Notes under the pieces: model-generated | Told to the model about the DNA's origin: nothing | The model's input: the letters and a program-made list of their open reading frames with translations, nothing else | The model's database searches: none | Translations under genes and position numbers: made by a program | In this document: piece by piece, positions 45,245-63,046 of the stretch | How the letters are laid out: each line of letters starts with the position of its first letter | How positions within the stretch are numbered: the first letter of the stretch is position 1 | Assembly (NCBI RefSeq): GCF_014207505.1 | Contig: NZ_JACHGL010000005.1 | Location: 112,358-176,357 of the forward strand | From: Leuconostoc carnosum | GTDB taxonomy: Bacteria; Bacillota; Bacilli; Lactobacillales; Lactobacillaceae | DNA length: 64,000 nucleotides | Direction: 5' to 3'

Positions 45245-45386
45245 AAATCTCCTTTTTATACAAAAAACCGTGTAAGTCAGGAGACTCACACGGTTCTAGA
45301 AAATTACAGTAAAAGTATACACTCCTACCCTGAATATCTAGTTGCCTTGCAAGCCTCTCTGGACTTAAATTAAAGGTACTATCGTT
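45245..45386 (-). promoter_or_regulatory. PyrR-dependent attenuator of the pyr operon
   Basis: The leader holds a PyrR-binding motif, AGTCCAGAGAGGCTTGCAAG (45346-45365 area), and a terminator in which AACCGTGT pairs with ACACGGTT (45266-45295) followed by a T-run. Between them CTAGATA and TCTAGAA can form an antiterminator. With UMP bound, PyrR should bind the first stem and allow termination. The pyrR gene itself is not in the window. Confidence 0.9.
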
Positions 45387-59460: not shown

Positions 59461-60402
59461 CTAATAACCTCTATCGAGATCAACAACATTTTGTACAAAT
59501 GTACCCTCGGTTACAAATGAAGGCACATTCTTTTCGAGAAATGTAAATAGTCCACCTGCACGTCCAGTTTGCGCGTTCTCACCCCAACTTGTATGCTGTG
59601 TTAATAAGATTTGTGATCGTTCAAATAATGGATGATTTTTTGGCAATGGTTCTGGTGTCGTCACGTCTAGTGCAGCGTACTTAACGCGCGAGTCATCAAT
59701 TGCCGATAGCAATGCTGACTGATTCAATGTTGTTCCACGGCCAATATTAATAAACAAAAAAAGTTGGTTCATTTGTTCAAAAAAACGTTCATCAAAGAAA
59801 TTGTCAGTTTCTGTCGTACCTGGTAAGCCATCTACCACGATATCTGCCTTAGCTAAGCCTTCTTGGTAATCTGTCATAGCATAAACTCGATCAAAATTTG
59901 GCACTTGGTGACCCGTTCGGTTCACACCATAAACAGTACCACCAAAACTTTTAATTAATTTAGCAATTTGTTGTCCAATTCTACCAGTGCCAAAAACTAA
60001 TACTGGTAATTCACTGACAAGATATTGATCAGTGAATGGCTCCCAATGTGTTCGCGTTGCATACATGTGCAACCCACGAGCAAAGTATAAAATATAACTC
60101 AAAACTGTCTGCGCAATAGGCAGCGCCTTCAAACCACTAGCATTTGTAACAGTGATATCCCGTGCTTTGAGTTGCGCTAATGGTAAGTAATCTACACCAG
60201 CAGACTGTGCTTGAATCCACTTGAGTTTAGATGATGGATTCGTTAATATCTCTTCACCAATAGCATTGTCCCAACCATAACTAATTACAATTTCTGAAAT
60301 TTGACTTGCCTTAATCGTATCAGGCGTCACCACTTCAATGCCATATTTTGCTAAAAAATTGCGATTTTCAGTATTTAAAACTTTGACTGCTAGAAGTAAC
60401 AT
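59461..60402 (-). CDS. D-isomer specific 2-hydroxyacid dehydrogenase
   Basis: About 313 residues. NAD-binding loop VLVFGTGRIGQQIAKLIKSFGG near 135; substrate loop and catalytic residues INIGRGTTLN (Arg near 232), DVTTPEPLP (Glu) and ILLTQHTSWG (His) near 280. It belongs to the family of D-hydroxyacid dehydrogenases but the substrate is not predictable; it resembles the phosphoglycerate-dehydrogenase-like hydroxyacid group. The ATG at 60402 follows GGAG by 7 nt. It may act on keto acids, of interest next to the BCAA unit, which is divergent. Confidence 0.86.
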   Translation of the reverse strand: MLLLAVKVLNTENRNFLAKYGIEVVTPDTIKASQISEIVISYGWDNAIGEEILTNPSSKLKWIQAQSAGVDYLPLAQLKARDITVTNASGLKALPIAQTVLSYILYFARGLHMYATRTHWEPFTDQYLVSELPVLVFGTGRIGQQIAKLIKSFGGTVYGVNRTGHQVPNFDRVYAMTDYQEGLAKADIVVDGLPGTTETDNFFDERFFEQMNQLFLFINIGRGTTLNQSALLSAIDDSRVKYAALDVTTPEPLPKNHPLFERSQILLTQHTSWGENAQTGRAGGLFTFLEKNVPSFVTEGTFVQNVVDLDRGY

Positions 60403-60502
60403 CACTAATCTCCAATCTATTTTCTTTAATTATATTAAACTTTTGGATTAATAGCACTATTAATGTAAAAAAAATTTAATAAATGAGTTTATAATTAAAA
60501 CG

Positions 60503-60531
60503 TTGACATTTAATTATAGTTATGCCATAAT
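60503..60531 (+). promoter_or_regulatory. Promoter of the BCAA leader/EIIC/ilvE unit
   Basis: TTGACA (60503-60508), a 17-bp spacer and CATAAT (60526-60531). The transcript should start near 60538, 25 nt before the leader peptide. Confidence 0.85.
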
Positions 60532-60562
60532 TTAAACATTAACTCAAAGGAAAAAGAAACTA

Positions 60563-60628
60563 ATGCATATGTCAAGCTCATACAACTTCACAAACCTCAT
60601 TACGATCAGCGTCGTCATTATTATCTGA
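60563..60628 (+). CDS. Branched-chain amino acid leader peptide
   Basis: A 21-codon reading frame with AAAGGA 11 nt upstream. Its last ten residues, LITISVVIII, hold eight Leu/Ile/Val codons, the layout of a classical attenuator peptide that senses charging of tRNA-Ile/Val/Leu. The stop TGA (60626-60628) is followed at once by ACTTCTC, the first arm of the competing hairpins. The frame is not a fragment of a longer gene. A second ATG two codons in is possible. Function is inferred from composition and position. Confidence 0.8.
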   Translation: MHMSSSYNFTNLITISVVIII

Positions 60629-60740
60629 CTTCTCGCTGGTCTACTTTTGGTTGCCAGTTGAGAAGTACTCTCAACTGGCGTGAAGATGTTGAACTTCTCA
60701 ATATCTTAAAAGGCGCTAGTAGTATCTAGCGCCTTTTTTC
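60628..60740 (+). promoter_or_regulatory. Attenuator: competing hairpins and terminator
   Basis: Four helices are visible. A: ACTTCTC-CTGG (60628-60639) with CCAG-GAGAAGT (60654-60666). B: GCCAGTTGAGA (60653-60663) with TCTCAACTGGC (60669-60679). C: TTGAGAAGT (60658-60666) with ACTTCTCAA (60693-60701). D: terminator AAAAGGCGCTAG (60708-60719) with CTAGCGCCTTTT (60726-60737), then a T-run. A, B and C compete for the same strand. How they reach the terminator arm is not obvious by eye. Confidence 0.8.
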
Positions 60741-60817
60741 TTTTTTCTTTAAAATACAAGCACGTATGCGACTGATATCTCATCACTCACATACACCAAA
60801 AAACGGAGGATTCAATT

Positions 60818-61951
60818 ATGAATGCAGCTGCAACAAATGCGCCAAAAAAGGCCGAAAACGAAAAAACCTTGATCGACCAAAAAAATCCACCACGTTCTAC
60901 ACGTGACGTCGTGTTTGATGTTTCGACTGGTATTTCTAATATCATTCTCGCGGTTCTTGGCATGGGACTCCTAATGTCATCAATTGGTAATTTATTTAAT
61001 TTCACGCCACTTGTTCAAGCAGGCCTCATGGGTCAAAAAATGTTAGCTCCAGGACTTGGCGTTGGAATTGCCATTATGATGCGTGCCAATATCTTAACGA
61101 CTGGTGCTGCATTAATTTCTGCAACAGTTGGATCAAACGCAGTGTATTTTACAACAACTGCTTCACCAGCAGCCCACACTGCTACTGGTTGGGTGGCTGA
61201 TCAAGCTGCCGGGTCACTAGTTATGACCTCTGGTCAACCTATTTCCGCTGTTCTGGCTGCGCTAATGGCAGTTTTAGTCGGTAATTGGCTAACCGGCAAA
61301 ACACCGTTGGACATGATGCTTGTGCCACTTGGTGCTGTGCTTGCTGGTACATTTTTTGGACTCGGTGCTGCCGCAGTGACAACACCATTTCTAAATTGGG
61401 TATCTGAAAATTTGGCTTCAACAATGCAGGTTAACCCATTGCTTGGTGCATTCGTTGTTTCTACTGTTTGGTTTATGTTCCTGATGACACCCGCTTCGTC
61501 AGCAGCTCTTGCGATCGCCGTTATGCTTGATCCTTTGTCTGGTGGTGCTGCGTTAATCGGTACAACTGCTGGATTTGTCGTTTATACTGCGATGGGCTGG
61601 ACACAAAATAATTTGGGTGCTAATTTTGCTCAAACAATTGTCACACCAAAAGTCCAATTCACAAACTTATTAAAAAGTCCCTTATTGTTCCTTGGTCCTG
61701 CAATGATTGCAGGCGTTTCAGCTATGTTTGCAGTTGGTGTCTTTAATTTAAAAGTACCTTTTGCTATTGCCGGCCTTGGATTAAATGGCTTCATTGCCCC
61801 CTTGGCATTGGCTGCCACTAACCCTCGTGGTTTATTACTGGTTGCTATCTTTGGTATTGTTGTTCCTACTATCAGCAGTTTGGTTTTTTATTACCTACTT
61901 AAAAAGTCTGGTAAGACAAAGACAAACGATTTGCATTTAGATGTTGTTTAA
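60818..61951 (+). CDS. PTS EIIC_2-like membrane protein, candidate BCAA-related transporter
   Basis: A 377-residue protein with about ten membrane segments, an N-terminal polar start (MNAAATNAPKKAENEK) and motifs FDVSTGISNIILAVLGMG, MRANILTTGAALISATVGS, TSGQPISAVLAALMAV and NPLLGAFVVSTVWFMFLMTPASS. It resembles PF13303 (PTS_EIIC_2), a family lacking IIA/IIB domains and poorly defined in substrate. No PTS partner is encoded nearby. It lies behind the BCAA attenuator and 54 bp ahead of ilvE, so transport of branched-chain amino acids or their keto acids is my inference. GGAGG precedes the ATG. Confidence 0.75.
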   Translation: MNAAATNAPKKAENEKTLIDQKNPPRSTRDVVFDVSTGISNIILAVLGMGLLMSSIGNLFNFTPLVQAGLMGQKMLAPGLGVGIAIMMRANILTTGAALISATVGSNAVYFTTTASPAAHTATGWVADQAAGSLVMTSGQPISAVLAALMAVLVGNWLTGKTPLDMMLVPLGAVLAGTFFGLGAAAVTTPFLNWVSENLASTMQVNPLLGAFVVSTVWFMFLMTPASSAALAIAVMLDPLSGGAALIGTTAGFVVYTAMGWTQNNLGANFAQTIVTPKVQFTNLLKSPLLFLGPAMIAGVSAMFAVGVFNLKVPFAIAGLGLNGFIAPLALAATNPRGLLLVAIFGIVVPTISSLVFYYLLKKSGKTKTNDLHLDVV

Positions 61952-62005
61952 ATTCAAATTAAGCGTTATAGTATTATTATATTTTTATAAGAAAGAAGAT
62001 TGACT

Positions 62006-63046
62006 ATGTCACAGAAAAAAGCAGAACCCTCAGATTTTAATTGGTCAGAACTTGGTTTTGAGTATCACGACTTGCCTTATCGCTTCCGTGCTTACTACAA
62101 AGATGGTAAGTGGAGTGAAGGTGGTCTTGAAACTGACTCAAATCTGCCAGTTAACGAAGCCGCAACAGGTCTTCATTACGGTCAAAACATTTTTGAAGGT
62201 TTGAAAGTTTATCGTCGTAAAGATGGTGGCGCTAATATTTTCCGCCCAGATCGTAATGCACAACGTTTCCAAAACTCAGCTGACCGTCTAATGATGGCAC
62301 CAGTTCCTGAAGAATTATTCCTACGTGCTTTGAAAGAAGTTACAAAGGCCAACAAAGACTTTGTCCCACCATATGGCACAGGCGCAACTTTATATCTTCG
62401 CCCATTTGAATTTGGAGATGGTCCCGTGGTTGGTGTTCACCCAGCTGATGAATATGTCTTTGAGGTTTACGCAACACCAGTTGGTGCCTACTACAAAGGT
62501 GGCTTAACACCAACAGCTTATGTAACAAATCACTTTGATCGCGCTGCCCATGGTGGTACCGGTGCTGCTAAGGCTGGCGGAAACTATGGCGCTTCAATGA
62601 TGGCTGGTAATCAAGCACATGCAGCTGGTTACTCAGATGTCGTTTACCTTGATCCACGTTTACATGAAAATATTGAAGAATTGGGTTCAGCTAATTTCTT
62701 TGGTATCACAAAAGATGGCCGCTTCCTAACACCAAAGTCACCTTCAATTTTGCCATCAGTAACAAAATATTCATTGCTGGAGGTTGCTAAGGAACTAGGA
62801 CTACAAGCTGAAGAAACAACGATTTCAATCAATGACTTGGATCAGTTTGCTGAAGCTGGTGCAATGGGTACCGCAGCTGTGATTTCTCCTGTTGGTTCTA
62901 TCACACACAATGGCAATAAGCATGTTTTCTATTCAGAAACAGAAGTTGGTCCATGGACTCAAAAGCTATATGATCGTTTGACAGCTATCCAATATGGTGA
63001 TGAAAAAGGTCCCGAAGGCTGGGCTGTAGACGTTCCACTTAACTAA
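62006..63046 (+). CDS. ilvE: Branched-chain amino acid aminotransferase
   Basis: About 346 residues; PLP fold IV enzyme that interconverts Leu/Ile/Val and keto acids. Seen: FNWSELGFEYHDLPYRFRAYYKDGKW at the start, NEAATGLHYGQNIFEGLKVYR near 50, the PLP lysine in AAKAGGNYGASMMA near 195, and EELGSANFFGI near 230. The ATG at 62006 is chosen over a TTG two codons upstream; the ribosome site is AG-rich but weak. A weak promoter (TTGTTT, 17 bp, TATAGT) may lie at the end of the preceding gene. Confidence 0.95.
   Translation: MSQKKAEPSDFNWSELGFEYHDLPYRFRAYYKDGKWSEGGLETDSNLPVNEAATGLHYGQNIFEGLKVYRRKDGGANIFRPDRNAQRFQNSADRLMMAPVPEELFLRALKEVTKANKDFVPPYGTGATLYLRPFEFGDGPVVGVHPADEYVFEVYATPVGAYYKGGLTPTAYVTNHFDRAAHGGTGAAKAGGNYGASMMAGNQAHAAGYSDVVYLDPRLHENIEELGSANFFGITKDGRFLTPKSPSILPSVTKYSLLEVAKELGLQAEETTISINDLDQFAEAGAMGTAAVISPVGSITHNGNKHVFYSETEVGPWTQKLYDRLTAIQYGDEKGPEGWAVDVPLN

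Follow-up and report, generated by a model that had tools for sequence, protein, structure and literature searches.

The 64,000-nucleotide stretch of Leuconostoc carnosum DNA analyzed here (contig NZ_JACHGL010000005.1, forward strand; hereafter the window) contains, at positions 60503-60739, an element that is very probably a ribosome-mediated transcription attenuator. Judging from its sequence, it would sense charged isoleucine and valine (perhaps also leucine) tRNA, and it lies ahead of an apparent branched-chain amino acid (BCAA) supply operon in which a PF13303 membrane protein, EIIC paralogue 1 (EIIC1), is followed by ilvE. Comparison with relatives establishes, for the predicted peptides and RNAs, that the leader is conserved, that its helices exclude one another, and that related RNA stands at other BCAA genes. 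The features of the locus are as follows.

60503..60531 (+), sigma-A type promoter with an extended -10, TTGACA-17-CATAAT; similar hexamers precede several Leuconostoc leaders
60546..60551 (+), Shine-Dalgarno sequence of the leader, AAAGGA, read from the sequence
60563..60628 (+), leader peptide open reading frame (ORF), 21 codons, MHMSSSYNFTNLITISVVIII, stop TGA at 60626; read in 18 of 19 Leuconostoc loci
60604..60611 (+), segment 1 (GATCAGCG), within the Ile15-Ser16-Val17 codons; partner is segment 2, from the swap test described below
60629..60641 (+), segment 2 (CTTCTCGCTGGTC), immediately 3' of the stop codon; partner is segment 1 or 3
60653..60665 (+), segment 3; partner is segment 2 (antitermination state) or 4 (termination state)
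60669..60680 (+), segment 4; partner is segment 3, or segment 5 via ACTGGCG
60683..60707 (+), accessory hairpin between segments 4 and 5, predicted from the fold of the window sequence only
60714..60720 (+), segment 5 (CGCTAGT), 5' arm of the terminator; pairs with segment 4 as antiterminator
60708..60739 (+), intrinsic terminator (segments 5:6) with T tail, from the terminator scan; stem at 60708-60737, with changes on both sides in 4 of 10 stem pairs
60818..61951 (+), PF13303 (PTS_EIIC_2) membrane protein, EIIC1; profile match 199 bits (cut-off 28.9)
62006..63046 (+), ilvE, branched-chain amino acid aminotransferase; NF009897 456 bits (cut-off 307), TIGR01123 395 bits (cut-off 250)
59461..60405 (-), D-2-hydroxyacid dehydrogenase-like gene, divergent neighbor, possibly tied to the EIIC1-ilvE operon

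The initial annotation of this DNA had proposed a promoter, a 21-codon leader rich in Leu, Ile, and Val, competing hairpins behind its stop, a terminator, and a PF13303 protein followed by ilvE, and all of these were recovered. The promoter matches 11 of 12 hexamer positions and carries a TG before the second hexamer in the scanner output; the match is not significant by itself because about two promoter-like sites are expected in shuffles of such a stretch. The last ten leader codons read L I T I S V V I I I, eight of them Leu, Ile, or Val, so that the short ORF combines a ribosome-binding site with enrichment in regulatory codons, as expected of an attenuator; a second in-frame ATG at 60569 offers an alternative start. 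The region 60536-60742 folds at -70 kcal/mol, compared with a shuffled mean of -38.1 (sd 4.0; z = -8.0). Such a terminator is expected 0.2 times in shuffles, and its position between the leader and the first gene is again that of an attenuator. The competing hairpins are thus backed by the fold, by the terminator scan, and by the helix tests below.

The segments form a relay of mutually exclusive helices, with 1:2, 3:4, and 5:6 representing termination and 2:3 and 4:5 representing antitermination. Segment 1 lies inside the control codons and segment 2 at the stop, positions that would let a ribosome finishing the leader mask segment 2, as attenuation demands. We infer stalling and the direction of the response as follows. 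When Ile and Val are scarce, the ribosome would stall at the Ile15-Val17-Val18 codons and cover segment 1, which would leave segment 2 free to pair with segment 3; with 2:3 formed, segment 4 could then take up the terminator's 5' arm as helix 4:5, and transcription would read through into EIIC and ilvE. When Ile and Val are ample, the ribosome would reach the stop at 60626 and cover segment 2, allowing 3:4 and then the terminator 5:6 to form. In the case of no translation, 1:2, 3:4, and 5:6 would form, likewise leading to termination. The EIIC-ilvE operon would then serve BCAA supply during starvation, with IlvE interconverting amino and 2-oxo acids. In topology, the relay matches the his attenuator of Salmonella and E. 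coli, whose six segments pair as A:B, C:D, and E:F or as B:C and D:E, and is unlike the simpler three-helix trp form. The two relays also share their sign, but the his leader carries His codons, and no sequence relation between them is claimed.

The exclusive helices are kept by covariation, exceptions aside. In an alignment of 18 Leuconostoc sequences, 93.8% of cells are paired in the termination state, with nine pairs changed on both sides, and 95.4% in the antitermination state, with four such pairs, whereas sliding one arm as a control reduced pairing to 22-53%. A broader MAFFT alignment of 31 Ile/Val leaders was set aside because distant leaders were misaligned, and was replaced by this Leuconostoc-only alignment and a per-sequence swap test, in which segments are defined in each sequence and exchanged between clades (grouped by hand), with significance by permutation. 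Own partners for 1:2, 2:3, and 4:5 outperformed partners from other clades both in the Ile/Val type (10 clades; p <= 0.0004, 0.0002, and 0.0004, respectively) and in the Leu type (13 clades; p <= 0.004, 0.0002, and 0.0056), while four control segment pairs had no significant effect (p 0.35 to 0.996). For 2:3, the own pairing exceeded the mean swap in 9 of 10 Ile/Val clades and in all 13 Leu clades. Support for 4:5 comes from the comparison between genera, since this helix is invariant within Leuconostoc, a point that counts against the model.

EIIC1 was found in all 19 Leuconostoc genomes, and the leader was read upstream of it in 18; at the remaining locus (L039, genome G202), only 194 upstream bases are available, and the RNA model matched part of the element on that contig. 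The loss of the leader codons in relatives had been named at the outset as an observation that would speak against attenuation, and the codons proved to be retained. The leader core is INVVIII or near it in most Leuconostoc genomes, preceded by an NFT motif, and it is altered yet still rich in Ile and Val in Fructobacillus (NIIVAIIIIT), Weissella (LILDLIIIN), and Oenococcus (IILVSVVLLITQ). Leaders were also found in Convivina, Fructilactobacillus, and Periweissella, and in three further families of the order. A fixed scan rule, which called for an ORF of 12-46 codons with at least seven L/I/V among ten consecutive codons close to its end and for a terminator 30-110 bases farther downstream, detected a leader and terminator in 52 of 128 EIIC upstream regions and in none of 128 reverse complements or 384 dinucleotide shuffles; the rule was fixed after leaders had been seen, but it was the same for real and control sequence. 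The sample excludes L039, L073, and L091, which have little upstream DNA, and the repeats L208 and L210. One of the 52 matches, L047, is not trusted as a leader and is labeled as having none on the EIIC tree, and some leaders on the tree (for example L057, L063, and L065) miss the scan threshold. Outside the family, nine of 24 loci matched, eight in the group coded f2 and one in f7; leaders at L221 (f7) and L218 (f9) were seen by eye below the threshold, and none was detected by the scan at the f3 and f8 loci. Under a laxer terminator rule, all 57 leaders preselected by peptide pattern had a terminator, a count that is not independent because the C-terminal peptide patterns were written after those leaders had been seen.

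No T-box was found ahead of EIIC in the 69 locus entries searched (the strict gathering threshold was applied to 60), and the window, searched against Rfam at the gathering threshold, contains no T-box (RF00230) and no curated amino-acid operon leader, only PyrR and tRNA matches. The sole T-box among the EIIC loci (L022, 2236-2477) lies ahead of a 2-oxopentenoate hydratase-like gene that diverges from EIIC; genes of this kind, identified by eye, adjoin EIIC in L133 and L174. At L222, the place that the leader takes in relatives, immediately upstream of EIIC-ilvE, is occupied by a transposase-like gene (501-1457). In Fructobacillus (genus code g2; genome G001), an Ile/Val leader precedes a remnant of EIIC, about 98 codons long, with an internal deletion (L260, from 1166).

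The leader codons follow the phylogeny of the protein. A second EIIC clade (EIIC2), 39-46% identical to the window EIIC, has mostly Leu-rich leaders such as LLLNLLLI, including all eight Leuconostoc EIIC2 copies fetched, while Ile/Val leaders mark the window clade. Over the last 12 codons, the Ile/Val group contains 40% Ile and 16% Val, and the Leu group 45% Leu. On a tree of 113 EIIC proteins, leader class changes five times, compared with 52 when shuffled (FastTree; long branches flagged, near-copies included, and L039, L091, and all rows lacking a complete open frame dropped). Ile-rich leaders occur inside the Leu clade in a single group, made up of the tandem second copies of L057, L066, L069, and L074, and L017 (LLGLILDLIIIN) was scored as Leu though it lies within the Ile/Val clade.

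Related RNA also stands at other BCAA genes. A covariance model built from Leuconostoc EIIC1 leaders and searched against 397 family genomes also matched leaders that precede brnQ in Oenococcus and Periweissella, with E < 1e-3 in four genomes (G029, G065, G121, and G114), three of which were inspected; the two BrnQ proteins scanned scored 348 and 330 bits against TIGR00796 (cut-off 243). The similarity between the brnQ leader of Periweissella, MNSTNFTQVNNIIISAIIII, and the EIIC1 leader of Leuconostoc, MKSLSSTNFTQVIKINVVIII, suggests that the two share a module. In the source genome of the window, the model of EIIC2 leaders matched ahead of leuABCD (leader MKSMNNNNMNINNTALLLNLLRQHLTS, E 2.0e-5), ahead of a helix-turn-helix (HTH) regulator and a suf operon divergent from ilvD (leader MKNVKNNQIILSLLIIC, E 2.6e-7), and ahead of a NicO transporter, PF03824 (leader MNKQMTKIEIIRLILLN, E 1.8e-5). 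The SufC, SufD, and SufS proteins of this operon score over cut-off. Fe-S assembly in Leuconostoc is perhaps under BCAA attenuation, and suf might serve the Fe-S enzymes IlvD and LeuCD. Leader RNA of the Leu-type model stands before the HTH regulator and suf operon, with ilvD divergent, at L117 (4991-5044, minus strand), L290, L293, L295, and L301; L298 likewise has an RNA match ahead of suf but a poor BCAA leader. BCAA- or Leu-type leaders precede NicO metal transporter genes at L303 (417-1439, minus strand; PF03824 scanned) and, by eye, at L291, L292, L294, and L297. Weak RNA-model matches at L256, L257, L258, L299, and L300 were rejected as chance, as they overlap coding sequence or have no fitting gene behind them. 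The two models returned about 30 more matches away from known EIIC loci, siblings of the suf and NicO leaders among them.

The gene company of EIIC points in the same direction as its leaders. In 13 of 19 Leuconostoc loci, ilvE lies 3' of EIIC1. Of 80 further EIIC copies in the family, at least eight have ilvE behind them and at least nine have it ahead (lower bounds, as flanks were about 1.5 kb or less), and outside the family it is behind in 4 of 24 loci. The Leu-leader EIIC2 of the source genome heads an operon with a LIV-type binding protein, LivH, LivM, LivG, and LivF, all assigned by best NCBIfam matches under the curated cut-offs. At L064 and L067, an APC permease follows EIIC2 (L064 scanned: best match BcaP, 440 bits, cut-off 690). 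EIIC1 is present in every Leuconostoc genome but ilvD in 6 and ilvC in 5 of the 19, so the EIIC operon is independent of the biosynthetic pathway. Within the EIIC family, 40 columns are invariant among 60 homologues. An AlphaFold2 model of EIIC1 (pLDDT 84, pTM 0.77) is mostly helical and membrane-protein-like, and comparison with Protein Data Bank (PDB) sequences returned no match up to E 10.

Judging from this regulation and gene company, EIIC probably transports a branched-chain compound. We infer its role accordingly: our best reading is that it most likely imports a BCAA or the corresponding 2-oxo or 2-hydroxy acid. The initial annotation had made both claims, namely that EIIC-ilvE is controlled by BCAA attenuation, which conservation and covariation strongly support, and that the family moves BCAAs or keto acids, which draws indirect support from leader codons that track the paralogues, from operons with ilvE, 2-hydroxyacid dehydrogenase-like, LIV-like ABC, and BcaP-like genes, and from related RNA at brnQ. 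More broadly, we lean slightly toward the view that the Lactobacillales PF13303 proteins include unrecognized carriers of BCAAs or 2-oxo/2-hydroxy acids, with paralogue specificity (Ile/Val versus Leu) written in the leader peptides, and that the Leuconostoc members belong to a BCAA attenuator regulon with leuABCD, suf (next to ilvD, an Fe-S enzyme gene), and NicO.

A number of observations weigh against this picture. Two termination-state pairs each fail in 11 of the 18 Leuconostoc sequences, and the count of further pair types in that state is 17, compared with a shuffled mean of 19.1 (499 of 500 shuffles equal or higher). Own 1:2 pairing exceeded the mean swap in all 10 Ile/Val clades but in only 8 of 13 Leu clades, and own 4:5 did so in 7 of 10 and 10 of 13, respectively; 4:5 is weak in Convivina (L010 and L011) and in the second copies of L057, L066, L069, and L074. 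On the EIIC tree, 51 of 113 homologues have no leader directly ahead, which runs counter to the carrier claim in particular; six of these (seven with the weaker L051) sit behind ilvE in operons with a leader ahead of ilvE, and a YLVSLVII-type motif occurs in seven of nine ilvE upstream stretches read. In 6 of 19 Leuconostoc loci, the gene behind EIIC1 is an amino-acid permease-like gene (L005 scanned: PF13520), not ilvE. Alongside EIIC there are BrnQ and a LIV-like ABC system, which makes it questionable whether another carrier is needed. Finally, neither a BCAA leader nor a T-box was found in the stretch searched at ilvBHC-ilvA of the source genome, or on the ilvD side of its intergenic region.

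The main rival to import accepts the attenuator and has EIIC export branched-chain 2-oxo or 2-hydroxy acids formed from BCAAs by IlvE and 2-hydroxyacid dehydrogenases, for redox balance and not for precursor supply. Dehydrogenase genes do recur beside EIIC: the order in Liquorilactobacillus is ilvE, EIIC, L-2-hydroxyisocaproate dehydrogenase-like gene (the dehydrogenase-like protein of L042 has PDB entry 1hyh as its best match, E 4e-82, with the next at E 4e-52), that in Weissella confusa is D-2-hydroxyacid dehydrogenase, ilvE, leader, EIIC, PanE-like gene, and the divergent D-2-hydroxyacid dehydrogenase-like gene is present, by eye, at 12 of 19 Leuconostoc loci. Moreover, lactic acid bacteria are reported to make 2-hydroxyisocaproate, in work that began from Leuconostoc lactis (PMC5589888). 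Export of BCAA products would nevertheless be wasteful if BCAA starvation induces the operon, as the leader predicts, and in the source genome the Leu paralogue lies in one operon with LIV-like uptake genes. We therefore regard export as possible but unlikely and continue to favor import.

Other readings fare less well. Some relatives of EIIC are read as PfoR-like toxin regulators. A membrane sensor or regulator in place of a carrier would fit the annotation of S. aureus SAUSA300_0310 as perfringolysin O regulator PfoR (PMC13227979). We consider this quite improbable. That protein is presumably a member of the EIIC family. The mostly helical, membrane-protein-like model, the invariant columns, and an operon company of transporters and enzymes argue weakly against a sensor. 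A PTS-like sugar permease that is co-regulated with BCAA genes by coincidence would explain the Pfam name and the 199-bit match. We hold it to be very unlikely, given the recurrent tie to BCAA leaders and BCAA genes across four families of the order; in addition, no EIIA or EIIB partner was recognized by eye among the neighbors inspected, few of which were HMM-scanned, and genomes were not searched for partners. It is least probable, to the point of being hardly credible, that the hairpins respond to the general translation rate or to an RNA-binding protein, because the leader residues differ specifically between the Ile/Val and Leu groups and one lineage of tandem second copies within the Leu clade has Ile-rich leaders.

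The mechanism itself is of a known kind, as the accounts of leader-peptide attenuators of BCAA biosynthesis in Listeria and Staphylococcus indicate (PMC5864092, PMC5794164). Rli60 of Listeria monocytogenes, a ribosome-mediated attenuator of ilv-leu, resembles the window element in its BCAA leader peptide, its terminator and antiterminator, its Gram-positive host, and its control in cis by BCAA supply; unlike that element, it governs biosynthesis and forms two alternative overlapping hairpin structures, and the passages describing it mention no EIIC, ilvE, or brnQ target (PMC5864092). The ilv-leu operon of Staphylococcus aureus likewise has a Leu-rich attenuator peptide and a predicted terminator but is described as a biosynthetic operon only; the same section cites predicted leaders for Lactococcus and Streptococcus (PMC5794164). 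The ilvBNC attenuator of Corynebacterium glutamicum also concerns a BCAA operon and has three hairpins, in a biosynthetic setting in Actinobacteria (PMC11857589). Histidine leader peptides of bacilli are similar in that leader-peptide attenuation has replaced T-boxes in Firmicutes; they differ in their His codons and hisS paralogues, and the relevant main text does not include Leuconostoc (PMC2965389). In Firmicutes, T-boxes control LIVCS (BrnQ) and APC transporters and have been used for substrate prediction, so that tRNA charging governs BCAA carriers there too, but through a tRNA-binding RNA with no leader peptide, and the account as excerpted mentions no PF13303 gene (PMC2494555).

T-boxes are the better-known device in lactic acid bacteria (compare PMC2494555), and our results suggest that these organisms also have several related BCAA attenuators, extending to Fe-S assembly. 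They also provide a function hypothesis for a membrane protein family with a probably misleading name and suggest that leader-peptide codons can serve to label the substrate of an uncharacterized transporter. BCAA uptake and conversion in these food bacteria are relevant to compounds such as 2-hydroxyisocaproate. In the literature searched, with subscription papers outside its scope and some PfoR results dominated by pyruvate:ferredoxin oxidoreductase (PFOR), we found no paper tying PF13303 to BCAAs or describing this regulon.

Several further observations concern the same genomes. An orphan leader, MNKIISATTKLILSVIVIIT, with a terminator occurs in Leuconostoc at L259 (6865-7014), with no same-strand gene of at least 70 codons listed for about 3.5 kb behind it. 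A T-box lies ahead of the second brnQ of the source genome (L268, 496-753; 83 bits, gathering score 93, E 4.6e-17). The source-genome LeuA (L289, 3205-4371, minus strand) has 389 residues and, at its C terminus, falls short of the standard LeuA model by about 130, a segment that is possibly the leucine feedback domain. Elsewhere in the window, the PyrR binding site (RF00515, 62.9 bits) lies at 45260-45380 on the minus strand.

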